This document shows, one piece after another, positions 42,944 through 63,045 of a DNA stretch of 64,000 nucleotides. A program made the translations under genes and the position numbers. Each line of letters starts with the position of its first letter. Position 1 is the stretch's first letter. Source of the DNA: Lachnospiraceae bacterium (GTDB lineage: Bacteria > Bacillota > Clostridia > Lachnospirales > Lachnospiraceae); the NCBI GenBank assembly GCA_017460885.1, contig JAFUAB010000002.1:1-64000 (forward strand), given 5' to 3'. Below the pieces are notes generated by a model. That model worked only from the letters and a program-made list of their open reading frames with translations. It was not told where the DNA came from and ran no database searches.

Positions 42944-42953
42944 TCGATGTTTA

Positions 42954-42996
42954 AGGAGCTGTAGAGGAATAACATGGTCATTTCACTACAGTTCCT
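42954..42996. repeat. AGGAACTGTAG-type palindrome
   Basis: Left arm AGGAGCTGTAGAGGAAT and right arm ATTTCACTACAGTTCCT are complementary at 15 of 17 positions. A related, weaker element is at 60573-60615, and a fragment (AAGGAACTGTTGC) lies near 3183. It directly follows the helical protein gene. Confidence 0.65.
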
Positions 42997-58349: not shown

Positions 58350-60128
58350 ATGATCAGGGTTGTATTGATCAGCATCAGAATAATAATCTCACTTATCCTG
58401 GCGGTCATCGCATATCGATATGCACTGTTTTATAACCTGCATATGTTTCAGTTGAACGGCTACAAGAACGGGGAGCATTTTGTATGGATCCGGAAGTTCA
58501 TCCGCAGACAGTGGGTGCTGATCGCGGGAGTTGTCATAGGCATTGCGACTGTTATCTTTCCCGGAGCGGTAACAGATTGGGTTACGTTGCTGTGGTTTCT
58601 GCTCATCATCGCGGTGTATCAGGCGCTGTGCGGTATGTCTCAGAAGAAGCCGCTTGTATATACGGCGCGTGTAAAGAGACTGACAGCAACAGTGATCGTG
58701 CTCGATGTGATACTTCTGTGTGCCGGTATACTGGCGTGGGACAAGGCGGAGGGACTTTTTATCGCCGGTGCTGCAGGCAGCAGAGTATTTGCCAGAGTTC
58801 TGGGCTTTAAGCTTTTTTACGGCGGATACGGGACGCTGGCGAGACTCGATGGCATATTGATGATAACCGTGGGACTTAAGATCCTGTCATGTATTATAGC
58901 CAATATCGTAAATAAGCCGATAGAGAGAGCCGTAAGCGATCATTTTATCAATGATGCAAAAAGGATCCTGCGGGAAGCGAAAGATATGACGATCATCGGC
59001 GTGACGGGAAGCTACGGCAAGACAAGCGTCAAGTACTATCTCGGAGAGCTGCTGAGTGCGAAATACAATGTCCTGATCACACCGGAGAGCTACAATACCC
59101 CCATGGGAGTGGTAAGGACGCTCAGAGAGAGAATGAAGCCCGGCACGGAGATCTTTGTCTGTGAGATGGGAGCCAGACATGTGGGTGATATTAAGGAGCT
59201 CTGTGATCTGGTCCATCCTCATCATGGTATTATCACTTCGATCGGTCCTCAGCATCTGGAGACCTTCTTTAATATGGAAAATATCGTGTCTACCAAGTAC
59301 GAGCTTGCGGATGCGCTTCCGAAGGATGGAATGCTCTTTTTGAACTGGGATAATGAGTACGTTCGCGGAAACGCCGGCAAATACAGCAATGTGATCGGGT
59401 ATTCGGGTACCGAACGGGAACAGGTTCATGATCCTGACGCCGCGGATAAACAGCAGGATAACGTGGTTTCATCCGGCATATCTCAGAGTACGGAAGCCCA
59501 TATGCCCGGAGAAACAAAGACACAGCCCCGGTACTCTGCGCATAATATAATACTTACGCCTCAGGGAACAACGTTCGAAGTGTCGGCGCCGGATGGTGAA
59601 AGCGAAACATACACTACATCACTCATCGGTGCACATAATATAGTGAACATCACCGGTGCGATAGCCGTTGCACACTCAATGGGGATAGCCTTAAAGGATC
59701 TGAGGATCCCGGTAAGGAGACTCAGAAGCGTGCCTCACAGGCTGGAACTCAAACGGAACAGTAAAATAAACATTATTGATGACGCCTATAATTCCAATCC
59801 GGTCGGAAGCAAAGCCGCTCTCGACACGCTGGCCCTCTTTGACGGTATGAAGATCATGATCACTCCCGGTATGGTTGAACTGGGTGACAAGGAGGAGGAA
59901 TATAACTATGAATTCGGCCGTCATGCCGCTGAAGTATGCGATCATCTGCTGCTCGTAGGACACGGCAGAACGGATGCGATACGCAGGGGTGCAGAGGATT
60001 GCATTGACCGGATAAGTCAGATCCGTACCTTTGATCACTTTGAGGATGCTTTCGCCTACGCATCACAGATCCCTTGTGATACGGAGAAGTATATTTTGCT
60101 TGAAAACGATCTGCCGGATAATTATTAG
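58350..60128 (+). CDS. Membrane-fused MurF-like ligase
   Basis: A 592-residue protein. Residues 1-185 contain five or six membrane helices. From about 205 the Mur ligase catalytic domain has GVTGSYGKTSVKYYL (ATP loop), TPESYNTPMGVVRT and EMGARHVGDIKEL. The C-terminal domain has the substrate-binding IDDAYNSNPVGSKAALD (about 473-489) and ITPGMVELGDKEEEYN. These are MurF motifs, so it probably adds D-Ala-D-Ala or a related dipeptide to a UDP-MurNAc-peptide. A 40-residue acidic low-complexity insertion lies at about 355-395. A membrane-anchored form is unusual, and a canonical murF may lie elsewhere. Confidence 0.82.
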   Translation: MIRVVLISIRIIISLILAVIAYRYALFYNLHMFQLNGYKNGEHFVWIRKFIRRQWVLIAGVVIGIATVIFPGAVTDWVTLLWFLLIIAVYQALCGMSQKKPLVYTARVKRLTATVIVLDVILLCAGILAWDKAEGLFIAGAAGSRVFARVLGFKLFYGGYGTLARLDGILMITVGLKILSCIIANIVNKPIERAVSDHFINDAKRILREAKDMTIIGVTGSYGKTSVKYYLGELLSAKYNVLITPESYNTPMGVVRTLRERMKPGTEIFVCEMGARHVGDIKELCDLVHPHHGIITSIGPQHLETFFNMENIVSTKYELADALPKDGMLFLNWDNEYVRGNAGKYSNVIGYSGTEREQVHDPDAADKQQDNVVSSGISQSTEAHMPGETKTQPRYSAHNIILTPQGTTFEVSAPDGESETYTTSLIGAHNIVNITGAIAVAHSMGIALKDLRIPVRRLRSVPHRLELKRNSKINIIDDAYNSNPVGSKAALDTLALFDGMKIMITPGMVELGDKEEEYNYEFGRHAAEVCDHLLLVGHGRTDAIRRGAEDCIDRISQIRTFDHFEDAFAYASQIPCDTEKYILLENDLPDNY

Positions 60129-60131
60129 GGC

Positions 60132-60160
60132 TTGCAGTGATAACCAAAAAATGATAAAGT
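60132..60160 (+). promoter_or_regulatory. Probable promoter of the structured leader RNA
   Basis: TTGCAG (60132-60137), a 17-bp spacer and TAAAGT (60155-60160) start 4 bp after the MurF-like stop codon. The expected transcript start (about 60167) falls just ahead of the first paired base of the structure at 60171. Confidence 0.5.
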
Positions 60161-60166
60161 AGTAAA

Positions 60167-60451
60167 GAAAAAGCATAGTGGCTGTGCGGCGCCGTCAACA
60201 CCGCACAGCCGTGAAGAGTGCTTTAGGGAGCACTTTCACATGACCGAGGTCACACTACGCTTGTCATCATTATAGTCGATAGGTTCAGTGTTTTCAAGCA
60301 ATGCAGACCATATCGGTCTTTGGGGATTTCAATTATACTTGTCTCTGTATATGTTTAATTGATCTGTTCCCGCTGTGACGTGCGTATTGTTAAATTGCCT
60401 TTTTTATACAGGCAGGATGTGAAGTGTAAACTTTAGCATCCTGCTTTTTTT
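60167..60451 (+). ncRNA. Structured leader RNA with a compact four-way junction
   Basis: The 500-bp gap 60129-60628 holds no convincing gene. Bases 60171-60262 fold into a closed cloverleaf: P1 60171-60180 with 60253-60262 (one mismatch), P2 60181-60189 with 60201-60209 (perfect 9 bp), P3 60211-60222 with 60229-60239 (11 bp, one bulge), P4 60241-60244 with 60249-60252 (loop CGAG). Almost no base is left unpaired at the junction. A small hairpin (60305-60319) and then the terminator at 60412-60451 follow. No match to tRNA, tmRNA, RNase P, SRP or common riboswitch motifs was recognised. It could be a free small RNA or an antitermination leader of the CpsB operon; strand and limits are inferred. 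Confidence 0.5.
60412..60451 (+). terminator. Strong intrinsic terminator upstream of the cpsB operon
   Basis: GCAGGATG (60412-60419) pairs with CATCCTGC (60437-60444), with an inner AAGT/ACTT extension around GTAA, followed by seven T residues. It separates the structured leader from the exopolysaccharide genes. Confidence 0.85.
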
Positions 60452-60572
60452 GTGGCAACAGACGGATTCGATCCCGACGGCAGACAGTCCCGGAATTATT
60501 CATTTCAACCCTACGGACTTCTGCCAGTACGGGGTCGTGTTTGTGGTGGTCACGTAATTGTTGTCAGGGATA

Positions 60573-60615
60573 AGGAACTGTAGCGAAATGATTAAGTAAT
60601 TCTGCTTCAGTTCCT
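60573..60615. repeat. AGGAACTGTAG-type palindrome ahead of cpsB
   Basis: AGGAACTG (60573-60580) and CAGTTCCT (60608-60615) are exact inverted arms; the inner part pairs imperfectly. It is related to the element at 42954. It occupies the space just before the cpsB start codon, where no clear AGGAGG is seen. Confidence 0.55.
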
Positions 60616-60628
60616 AAAAGAAAGTACC

Positions 60629-61357
60629 ATGCTGAAAATCGTTGATATACATTGTCATATGATGCCCGGCGTAGACGACGGATCAGCAAATATGGCAATG
60701 ACCGGCAGGATGCTCCAGACAGCCAGCAATGAGGGTATAGATTCCATCATACTGACTCCACATTATAAGCCGGGACACAGACATGTCACTCCCGGGGAGA
60801 TAGGGGAATTTGCGGATACCCTGACCCATATTTCCGATCTGCGGGGATGGGATATGCGATTCTATCCCGGAAACGAGATCATGTATCACAATGATTGTGT
60901 CGCGAAGGTTGAGTCAGGCAGGATCTGCACCCTGGCAAACACGGATTACGTACTTGTTGAATTTGAGCCATGGAGTGAATTCGACCGTATATACAACGGG
61001 CTGCGGGAGTTCATGTATGCGGGTTACAGACCCGTACTTGCTCATATAGAGAGGTATTCCTGCATCATTGATAAGCCTGGGAGGGCAGAGGAAATACACA
61101 ATATGGGATGTTTTATCCAGGTTAATGCGTCCGCTGTTATGGGAGAGGAGGGGCGCGTCGTCCGGGTATTTACAAACAGGATACTTGGAGAACGCTTTGC
61201 GGACTTTGTGGCCACAGACTCGCATTCGGATACAACCCGGGCACCGCACATAAAGAAATGCGCCGATTATGTAGAAAGAAAATATGGCGCAGATTATGCG
61301 GCAAGGATATTTGAAGGCAATGCCAGCAAGCTTATCGAAGGAGACGAGATCCGTTGA
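60629..61357 (+). CDS. cpsB: CpsB/YwqE-type tyrosine-protein phosphatase (PHP domain)
   Basis: A 242-residue manganese-dependent phosphatase. PHP metal motifs: VDIHCHMMPGVDDGS (about 5-19), ILTPHYKPGH, GNEIMYH, RPVLAHIERY and DFVATDSHSD. CpsB dephosphorylates the bacterial tyrosine kinase CpsD and so sets capsule or exopolysaccharide output. It is the first gene of the operon whose next members are its expected partners CpsC and CpsD. Confidence 0.92.
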   Translation: MLKIVDIHCHMMPGVDDGSANMAMTGRMLQTASNEGIDSIILTPHYKPGHRHVTPGEIGEFADTLTHISDLRGWDMRFYPGNEIMYHNDCVAKVESGRICTLANTDYVLVEFEPWSEFDRIYNGLREFMYAGYRPVLAHIERYSCIIDKPGRAEEIHNMGCFIQVNASAVMGEEGRVVRVFTNRILGERFADFVATDSHSDTTRAPHIKKCADYVERKYGADYAARIFEGNASKLIEGDEIR

Positions 61358-61418: not shown

Positions 61419-62177
61419 ATGAACAGAAGAGACGGAAAAAACGACGTAATAGAAATAGATCTGCTTGAGATCGTTATGCTGCTGTGGCATCATGCGGTTC
61501 TGATCATAGGGGTGGGTATGATGTTTGCGATAGCGGCTTATGCGCTGGCTACGTATGTGATCCCGCCGTACTACCAGTCCACGACGAAGATCTACATATT
61601 AAACAAGACCGAAACCGCTGCAGTCACATATTCCGACACGCAGCTGGCGACACAGCTGACGAAGGATTACTCCGAACTGATCACCAGCCGGTATGTTATC
61701 GAACAGGTGATACAGGAGCATAATCTCGAGGTTGACTATGATGACATGTTGGAGAAGATCAGTGTAAATACCCCTACCGATACCAGAATAGTGGAGATCA
61801 CGGTGGAGGACAATGATCCTGTTGTGGCCATGAACATATGCAACTCCATCAGGGAGGTGGCCAGTGAACACATTCAGAACGTGATGGACATCGATGCCGT
61901 CAATGTTGTGGAGACGGCTAATATGCCGGAGGAAAAAGCCGGTCCCAGCGGGTTTAAGAGCGCACTGATAGCGGGAATGGCAGGCTGTGTGCTTGTGGCA
62001 GCAGGAATTTTCATCAGATATATGCTTAATGACTCCATCAGGTCATCCGACGACATAGAACGATATCTGGAGCTCAGTACTCTGGCACTCATTCCTATCG
62101 ACGAGAGTGAGTTGGAGGAGGAATCAACCAAAAAGAAAAGAAAAAAGAGATCAAGAAATGCAGGAAGTAATACTTAA
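61419..62177 (+). CDS. cpsC: CpsC/Wzz-type chain-length and kinase-activating membrane protein
   Basis: A 252-residue Wzz-domain protein with helices at about 25-47 and 185-207. Between them is an extracellular domain including PPYYQSTTKIYILNK, QLTKDYSELITSRYVIEQV and the Pro/Gly motif EKAGPSGFKSALIAG before the second helix. In Gram-positives this protein is separate from the kinase and activates it through its short cytoplasmic tail (here Lys-rich KKKRKKRSR). It overlaps cpsD by 20 bp. Confidence 0.92.
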   Translation: MNRRDGKNDVIEIDLLEIVMLLWHHAVLIIGVGMMFAIAAYALATYVIPPYYQSTTKIYILNKTETAAVTYSDTQLATQLTKDYSELITSRYVIEQVIQEHNLEVDYDDMLEKISVNTPTDTRIVEITVEDNDPVVAMNICNSIREVASEHIQNVMDIDAVNVVETANMPEEKAGPSGFKSALIAGMAGCVLVAAGIFIRYMLNDSIRSSDDIERYLELSTLALIPIDESELEEESTKKKRKKRSRNAGSNT

Positions 62178-63045
62178 GACAAAAGGATCGTCCTTCAGGA
62201 TCAAAGAAGCTTATAAATCACTCAGAACGAACGTGGAATTCTGCGGGGAGGACGTTAAGGTCATAGCAATCACCAGCTGTACTCCGAATGAAGGAAAATC
62301 CAGTGTATCCATGGGGCTTGCCCAGGCATTTGCAGAAGCCGGCAAGAAGACTCTTCTGGTGGATGCGGATCTGCGCAAGAGCGTGCTGGTGTCCAGATAC
62401 AGAACCGGACAGATCAGGTATGGTCTGGTGCATTTTCTGGTTGGGCAGAGAAAGGCAGAGGAGGTGTTCTGCAAGACTGATTTTCCCTCGCTTTTTGTTG
62501 TGTTTGCCGGCCCTGTACCACCTAACCCGAGTGAATTGATGGGAGGGAGTAAGTTTACCAGATTCCTGGAGGATGCCAGAAAGATCTTTGACTTCATTAT
62601 CGTGGATACTCCACCGCTCGGAAGTGTGATCGATGCCGCTGTAATAGCCACGAAATGTGACGGAACGGTGATGGTCATAGAGAATAACGCCGTGAGCTAC
62701 CGGTTTGCACAGAATGTAAAGGAGCAGCTTGACAGATCGGGCTGTCGGATACTTGGAGCGGTACTCAATAAGGTGGATATGTCGTCCGGAGGTCATTACG
62801 GTACCTACGGAAGATATTATGGAAGGTATTATGGCAGATATTACGGCAAATACTACGGTAATTACGGAGAATATGGTAATCTGCCGGACTCCTCTCTGGA
62901 TAAAAATACGAATTCTGACGTCAAAGATCGAACAGACACCAAAAAGAAGTCCGGGAAAGCCGGAAAAAATGTCAAAGCATCGGCTGCTTCGAATATGAAT
63001 GATCATCCGGAAGTGGAAATGATCGATCTGAACAAAGATGAATAA
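62158..63045 (+). CDS. cpsD: CpsD/CapB-type tyrosine kinase
   Basis: About 295 residues. The BY-kinase motifs are Walker A SCTPNEGKSSVS (about 41-52), Walker A' LLVDADLRKS and Walker B FIIVDTPPLGS. A Tyr-rich cluster of 12 Tyr in GRYYGRYYG-type repeats (about 213-240) is the autophosphorylation tail. Unlike most family members, about 50 further charged residues follow the cluster. ATG 62158 is preferred to an upstream ATG at 62107, since homology (EAYKSLRTNVEF) starts right after it. It overlaps the next gene by 8 bp. Confidence 0.92.
   Translation: MQEVILKTKGSSFRIKEAYKSLRTNVEFCGEDVKVIAITSCTPNEGKSSVSMGLAQAFAEAGKKTLLVDADLRKSVLVSRYRTGQIRYGLVHFLVGQRKAEEVFCKTDFPSLFVVFAGPVPPNPSELMGGSKFTRFLEDARKIFDFIIVDTPPLGSVIDAAVIATKCDGTVMVIENNAVSYRFAQNVKEQLDRSGCRILGAVLNKVDMSSGGHYGTYGRYYGRYYGRYYGKYYGNYGEYGNLPDSSLDKNTNSDVKDRTDTKKKSGKAGKNVKASAASNMNDHPEVEMIDLNKDE

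Follow-up and report, generated by a model that had tools for sequence, protein, structure and literature searches.

A predicted minus-strand cloverleaf small RNA before a Lachnospiraceae cpsBCD operon and its possible role in antisense-driven transcription attenuation

We propose that the gap in front of the cpsB-cpsC-cpsD operon of a Lachnospiraceae bacterium holds an antisense-RNA-driven transcription attenuator, a function read from sequence that we favour with modest confidence. The window, that is, the whole 64,000-nucleotide stretch of DNA analysed here, very probably encodes a cloverleaf small RNA on its minus strand. This RNA would most likely switch the downstream genes off through an early stop of transcription. 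A common layout, namely a rightward promoter, a convergent antisense RNA gene, a terminator and then a coding gene (cpsBCD in the window), is seen in 13/13 copies of the element.

Results

Layout of the leader

The intergenic gap extends from the stop of a murF-like gene at 60128 to the start of cpsB at 60629. Stems and a terminator followed by cpsB, cpsC and cpsD are found as the first-pass annotation of this DNA had described them, and Pfam and NCBIfam back the identities of the three genes. The features are as follows.

60132..60160, plus strand: weak leader promoter, TTGCAG-17-TAAAGT (7/12 consensus letters, by eye)
60164..60172, minus strand: 3' U-run of the small RNA, by sequence; a plus-strand A-run before P1, kept in an alignment of 12 relatives
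60171..60262, minus strand: predicted cloverleaf small RNA; P1 closes the four-way junction, and the order on minus is P4, P3, P2
60228..60241, plus strand: leader stretch X' (plus-strand 3' arm of P3), able to pair with T5' and complementary to the small RNA
60269..60297, minus strand: small RNA promoter TTGAAA-17-TATAAT (11/12 consensus letters; TTGAAA 60297-60292, TATAAT 60274-60269)
60412..60451, plus strand: intrinsic terminator before cpsB (hairpin 60412-60444, T-run 60445-60451), whose 5' arm is T5'
60629..61357, plus strand: cpsB, the first gene past the leader (PF19567 CpsB_CapC, E 1.4e-88, Pfam)
61419..62177, plus strand: cpsC-like (Wzz) chain-length gene (PF02706, E 1.3e-17)
62158..63045, plus strand: cpsD-like tyrosine autokinase gene (TIGR01007, 225 bits against a cut-off of 108)

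The terminator is strong, as first judged (segment 60400-60452, -21.1 kcal/mol, z -6.1), and a scan for rightward promoters found none between it and cpsB, in line with the same annotation. A second strong plus-strand hairpin lies between terminator and cpsB at 60450-60565 (-47 kcal/mol, z -3.8) and is not seen in the aligned relatives. The palindrome at 60571-60617 was rejected as a part of the leader: it is part of a dispersed repeat and has 13 other matches across the genome. Together with 42950-42996 it belongs to short-repeat pieces with inverted ends (GGAACTGTAGC...) that resemble MITEs. The same repeat may explain why 24398-24500 matches the end of contig C33 over 104 bp. C33 and C50, the contig of the window, are identical over window positions 43113-64000 (20,888 bp) and 99.99% identical over C50 60000-76129; the overlap is at least 33 kb (C33 was compared from 50000 on, so it may be longer) and reflects either assembly redundancy or a recent duplication. 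Because of this near-identity (99.99-100%), the exact second copy of the element on C33 was rejected as an independent copy.

The cloverleaf folds on the minus strand

The structured RNA had been placed on the plus strand, and our data do not bear this out: fold energies, a held-out model and G.U cells all favour minus. On that strand, the cloverleaf of 60262-60171 closes around a four-way junction (-54.5 kcal/mol, z -9.0); the same segment reaches -43.6 kcal/mol on plus (z -4.8), and a repeat fold of the 92-mer by script gave -52.4 (minus) versus -43.6 (plus) kcal/mol. Since 81 of 1500 92-mers taken at random from the window also show a minus-plus gap of at least 10.9 kcal/mol, the strand argument rests on recurrence across copies. 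The minus fold is the more stable one in all 15 copies that were each folded alone, with a margin of just 1.2 kcal/mol in L120. Model R3, made for the minus strand with the window copy held out, matches the window with 85.3 bits on minus, compared with 26.8 bits on plus.

The base pairs were compared in two ways. Among the 32 pairs common to the consensus of both strands, G.U on minus accounts for 14 cells (9 pairs) and A.C on minus for 3 cells (3 pairs). The alignment of 13 copies fitted to the plus strand contains 10 plus-strand A.C cells versus 12 G.U cells; 10 of these 12 sit in one loop-closing column, which favours plus, and the ratio without that column is 10 to 2. This loop-closing pair, G.U on plus in 10 of the 13 copies, counts against the minus reading.

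The four stems first seen at 60171-60262 are present and exceed chance, as no shuffle out of 200 folds as well on either strand. Their description as fully closed does not hold on plus, where P1 contains an A.C pair (60175/60258) and P3 a bulged G. On minus the A.C pair becomes G.U and the P3 bulge stays (one extra base). The case shows that folding by eye can put a structured RNA on the wrong strand.

Relatives and covariation

A model built from the window copy alone matched three further genomes among 397 of the family, besides its own; G001 and G003, which belong to the genus of the window, gave no match in this search. Scanning a collection of 84,980 genomes for the P3 pattern returned 11 loci, ten of them matching the model; the remaining one, L099, was not accepted. 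A search of the ten copy-bearing genomes added two paralogues, L118 and L120. With the window copy included, there are 13 distinct copies in 10 genomes, L101 being the copy in Lachnoclostridium sp. An14. The spread of the element is patchy, as judged with searches that used stricter filters, and lost weak matches, whenever more than 40 genomes were covered. Several candidates were not accepted: weak model matches in G257 and G249 (aligned loci L133 and L134), class-search matches in G241 and G746, and 18 of 22 genomes from the order search, where the eight inspected resembled a promoter plus plain terminator or a tRNA, or seemed to lack a cloverleaf.

The check for compensatory changes proposed in the first-pass annotation turned out positive, with strong covariation across copies. 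With 11 copies aligned by MAFFT, both sides had changed in 12 of 29 pairs, and shuffles scored as high in 0/500 cases on four of five measures and in 61/500 on the fifth. When 12 copies were aligned on minus, two-sided changes appeared in 15 of 35 pairs and 38 cells, a level reached by 0/500 shuffles on all five measures. The letters of P2 differ between the two group A copies in each of the three genomes that have two.

Pfam searches of downstream proteins detected choline-binding repeats at L101 and, below cut-off, at L104, a transglutaminase core at L106 and an M26 N-terminal region at L118; there was no hit for 6 of 10 proteins, nor for 3 of 5 in a second set. Signal-peptide-like starts are frequent in the first or second gene past the element (by eye). 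Given these mixed Pfam results, surface proteins downstream are a tendency, not a rule.

Convergent promoters flank the cloverleaf

The small RNA promoter boxes lie to the right of the cloverleaf and read on minus, placing the predicted start close to P1. Its TATAAT is exact in 13/13 copies, with TTG at a spacing of 17 or 18 (the -35 of L105 by eye). The rightward promoter-like sequence noted earlier is also present; in the window it is weak and below the threshold of the automated scan, and the leftward promoter is the better one. Across copies, the scan places a rightward promoter of the type TTGAAT-17-TAAAAT at a fixed site left of the cloverleaf in 10/13, and in the window copy, L100 and L118 it was assigned by eye. 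The rightward promoter of the window lies 12 nt from P1 rather than 19 nt, which counts against the attenuation reading. Transcription from the other strand only had been named as an outcome that would speak against the first annotation, and half of this is seen: the structured RNA reads from that strand, and conserved signals lie on both.

In the stretch that separates the terminator from the small RNA promoter, L097, L098, L101-L103, L105-L107 and L118 carry a conserved plus-strand block like GGAGTTTATTTGTTGTAC, which is absent from the window copy and L100. A leader peptide in this block was rejected (by eye), as start and frame are not kept and L097 has a stop.

Potential pairing of the leader with the terminator

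The arrangement of an attenuator is found in these loci. The antisense RNA gene lies inside the leader, convergent with the target promoter (weak and seen by eye in the window), and an intrinsic terminator stands between the antisense target and the coding gene in 13/13 copies; in L100 an earlier terminator precedes and the farther of the two was used. A leader stretch able to pair with T5' and to be covered by the antisense RNA is suggested by sequence pairing; predicted folds agree only in part, and that of the window copy does not.

The 5' arm of P3 in the small RNA resembles T5'. For the window copy, the X':T5' duplex energy was -13.0 and -13.7 in two computations (kcal/mol for this and the following pairings). 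Across copies, matched X' and T5' reach -11.7 versus -10.3 when mismatched (21 of 20000 permutations and 0 of 300 shuffles as good), and the leader 5' end with the terminator tail reaches -16.2 versus -10.1 (0 of 20000 permutations); the copies are related, and these permutation tests overstate significance. Exceptions occur. X' of L100 and of L104 pairs better with the T5' of other copies than with its own, L100 is also contrary for the second pairing, and the window copy, whose leader start is shortened, is weak there (-10.1).

When the small RNA footprint is blocked, the terminator forms in all 13 predicted leaders (8 of 9 pairs in that of the window). In minimum-energy folds of the free leader, the terminator is lost in three (L102, L103 and L106), partly open in five and already formed in five, that of the window included. 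Blocking the 3' arm of the terminator leads T5' to pair near X' in 5 of 13 folds. Even without such blocking, the terminator is present in the predicted leader of the window, whose copy of the element is divergent.

Sequence-unlike copies

R3 finds copies unlike in sequence, seven in G494, one in G574 and one in G647. Model R2 detected one copy each in G130 and G428 at E 0.01-0.04; with R3 their scores on the small-RNA strand rise to 44.9 and 40.6 bits. This strand folds better in 9/9 sequence-unlike copies. For six G494 copies, T5' repeats the P3 arm CGCAGGUGAUG, exactly in three and with a single change in three. Over 23 copies in five groups, X':T5' pairing reaches -16.1 kcal/mol when matched, -13.5 with others of the same group and -10.6 with other groups; the T5' windows of groups B to E were chosen by eye, and L136, where T5' was not found, was omitted. 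No permutation out of 20000 was as good and, among 120 group assignments, the true one ranks first, figures to be read with about three independent groups remaining, as the X' core CATCACCT is common to groups B, C and D. For L142, the contig stops shortly after T5'. These groups may be homologous or may have converged.

The seven G494 loci are L136 and L158-L163. HTH-like ORFs stand behind several of them by eye, confirmed with Pfam at L158 only, where an HTH_3 gene is followed by a secreted protein with a cellulose-binding domain.

Discussion

The mechanism that we favour would operate as follows. Rightward transcription would make the leader RNA, and X' paired with T5' would keep the terminator from forming, so that cpsBCD is transcribed. 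The small RNA, with its T5'-like P3 arm, would pair with X' and the nascent leader 5' end and set T5' free. The freed T5' would then allow the terminator to form, halting transcription before cpsB. Because A.C on plus replaces some G.U pairs of the small RNA, the leader is expected to be folded more loosely than the small RNA. We speculate, without giving the idea much weight, that the small RNAs of paralogous loci (seven in G494, two each in three other genomes) have terminator-mimicking arms in common, differ in P2 and might each also silence sister leaders in trans, forming an RNA-only circuit that chooses among surface proteins or polysaccharides.

Alternatively, the small RNA could stand alone, with a protein or other mRNAs as its trans targets, and the next gene would simply have the rightward promoter and terminator as ordinary parts. 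In favour of this, the window has preserved the promoter and fold of the small RNA better than the rightward promoter, and seven copies in G494 would fit a trans regulator. Against it, the rightward promoter keeps a fixed distance in 10/13 copies, every copy has a terminator, and within each copy the arms of the small RNA are matched by T5' and the tail. We regard this explanation as unlikely, though it is the strongest of the rivals. The first-pass annotation offered two options, and the better of these is a free small RNA belonging to a new family. The structured RNA, with compensatory changes in relatives and set in a leader that ends in a terminator, fits no Rfam 15 family: nothing in the window matches at gathering score, the relatives likewise match none, and searching the gap to E 10 gave only three sub-threshold matches (E 2.5 to 5.1).

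The other option, that polymerase passes the terminator with the help of a structured leader on the plus strand (a LoaP recruitment site, or a leader like EAR or a riboswitch), is improbable. The plus fold does beat shuffles, and its P4 loop at 60245, which we take to be of the YNMG type, would suit this idea. A loaP gene is present as well, as the suggested check for a NusG paralogue showed (C50:67273-67788, NF033641, 136.7 bits against a cut-off of 125; nearest solved sequence 8f5g). It belongs to the same cluster, about 6.6 kb downstream of cpsB and outside the window. Also in this part of C50 (L014:4011-7792) are an LCP-family gene, a class B sortase-like gene and, upstream of loaP, a gene for a small secreted-looking protein that matches no family. 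The strand evidence favours minus, however. Rfam scans gave no EAR match, and no UNCG hairpin with a stem of at least 3 pairs occurs on either strand of 60129-60628, so that the plus-strand readings (EAR, LoaP hairpin, riboswitch) were all rejected. LoaP linkage was not seen elsewhere either. Searching 12 other element genomes (G574 and G647 were left out) gave LoaP-family matches in 11, over the cut-off in four, and on 0 of 21 element contigs, many of them short enough for linkage to be missed; conversely, the element occurs in none of 40 LoaP loci of other genomes, taken from the best matches among 397. Tetraloops common to these 40 loci and the present one gave no clear signal. Lachnospiraceae LoaP proteins might bind another type of hairpin, and LoaP may still act on the cps operon as a second layer.

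Convergent promoters by themselves could lower expression through polymerase collision, with the fold merely stabilising or ending the antisense transcript. Both promoters are conserved, and transcriptional interference is reported in the accessible text on pIP501 (PMC4981023) and on RnaG/icsA (PMC5394118). Collision needs neither compensatory changes in four stems nor X':T5' matching, and we consider it very unlikely as the whole explanation. An invertible or mobile DNA element with end repeats flanking the cloverleaf is the least credible reading: left and right ends do match better within a copy (13.2 versus 11.4 of 17 letters, 0/20000 permutations), but 15/15 inspected copies have one orientation to the downstream gene, the rightward promoter is conserved though outside the repeat, and several of the mismatches between the ends become G.U in the leader RNA (by eye). 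Blastn searches of phage and plasmid records gave no match for the element of one copy, and the viral contigs scanned lack the P3 pattern.

The antisense-driven attenuation that we favour can be compared with known systems. Antisense-RNA transcription attenuation is known mainly from plasmids (pT181, pIP501) and from RnaG/icsA, and if our reading is true, a dispersed, sometimes multi-copy Clostridia family would extend it to chromosomal cell-surface genes. The family would also provide a natural set of related yet distinguishable RNA attenuators. None of the open-licence papers that our searches returned names the cloverleaf element in its title or abstract opening.

LoaP leaders of Bacillus velezensis (dfn, mln) likewise combine an RNA element and a terminator before a long biosynthetic operon, and our locus has a LoaP-family gene in its cluster. 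According to the accessible text of PMC12691694, B. velezensis LoaP binds a UNCG hairpin, after which polymerase passes a NusA-dependent terminator. The present locus differs in having no such hairpin, its structured RNA on the other strand and no LoaP linkage on the other element contigs; a LoaP-controlled leader, as first considered, is not supported. RnaG/icsA of Shigella flexneri is described as antisense attenuation with convergent promoters 120 nt apart and a leader antiterminator (PMC5394118, in part). Convergent promoters and an antisense RNA are shared with our locus, and the RnaG target is a surface-protein gene. RnaG itself is carried on a virulence plasmid, is 450 nt long and reads from within icsA; the likeness is one of arrangement, with no relation in sequence or structure seen. 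Further counterparts are RNAIII/repR of pIP501 (Inc18) and pT181, which PMC5415839 treats as a pair. An antisense RNA of 136 nt, made from a convergent promoter, works by attenuation within the long leader of pIP501 (329 bp), causing premature stops at a terminator that precedes the gene (PMC4981023, in part). There the antisense RNA lies before a replication gene and sets plasmid copy number, whereas here the element is dispersed in genomes before cps and other genes, with a four-way cloverleaf RNA and up to seven copies per genome.
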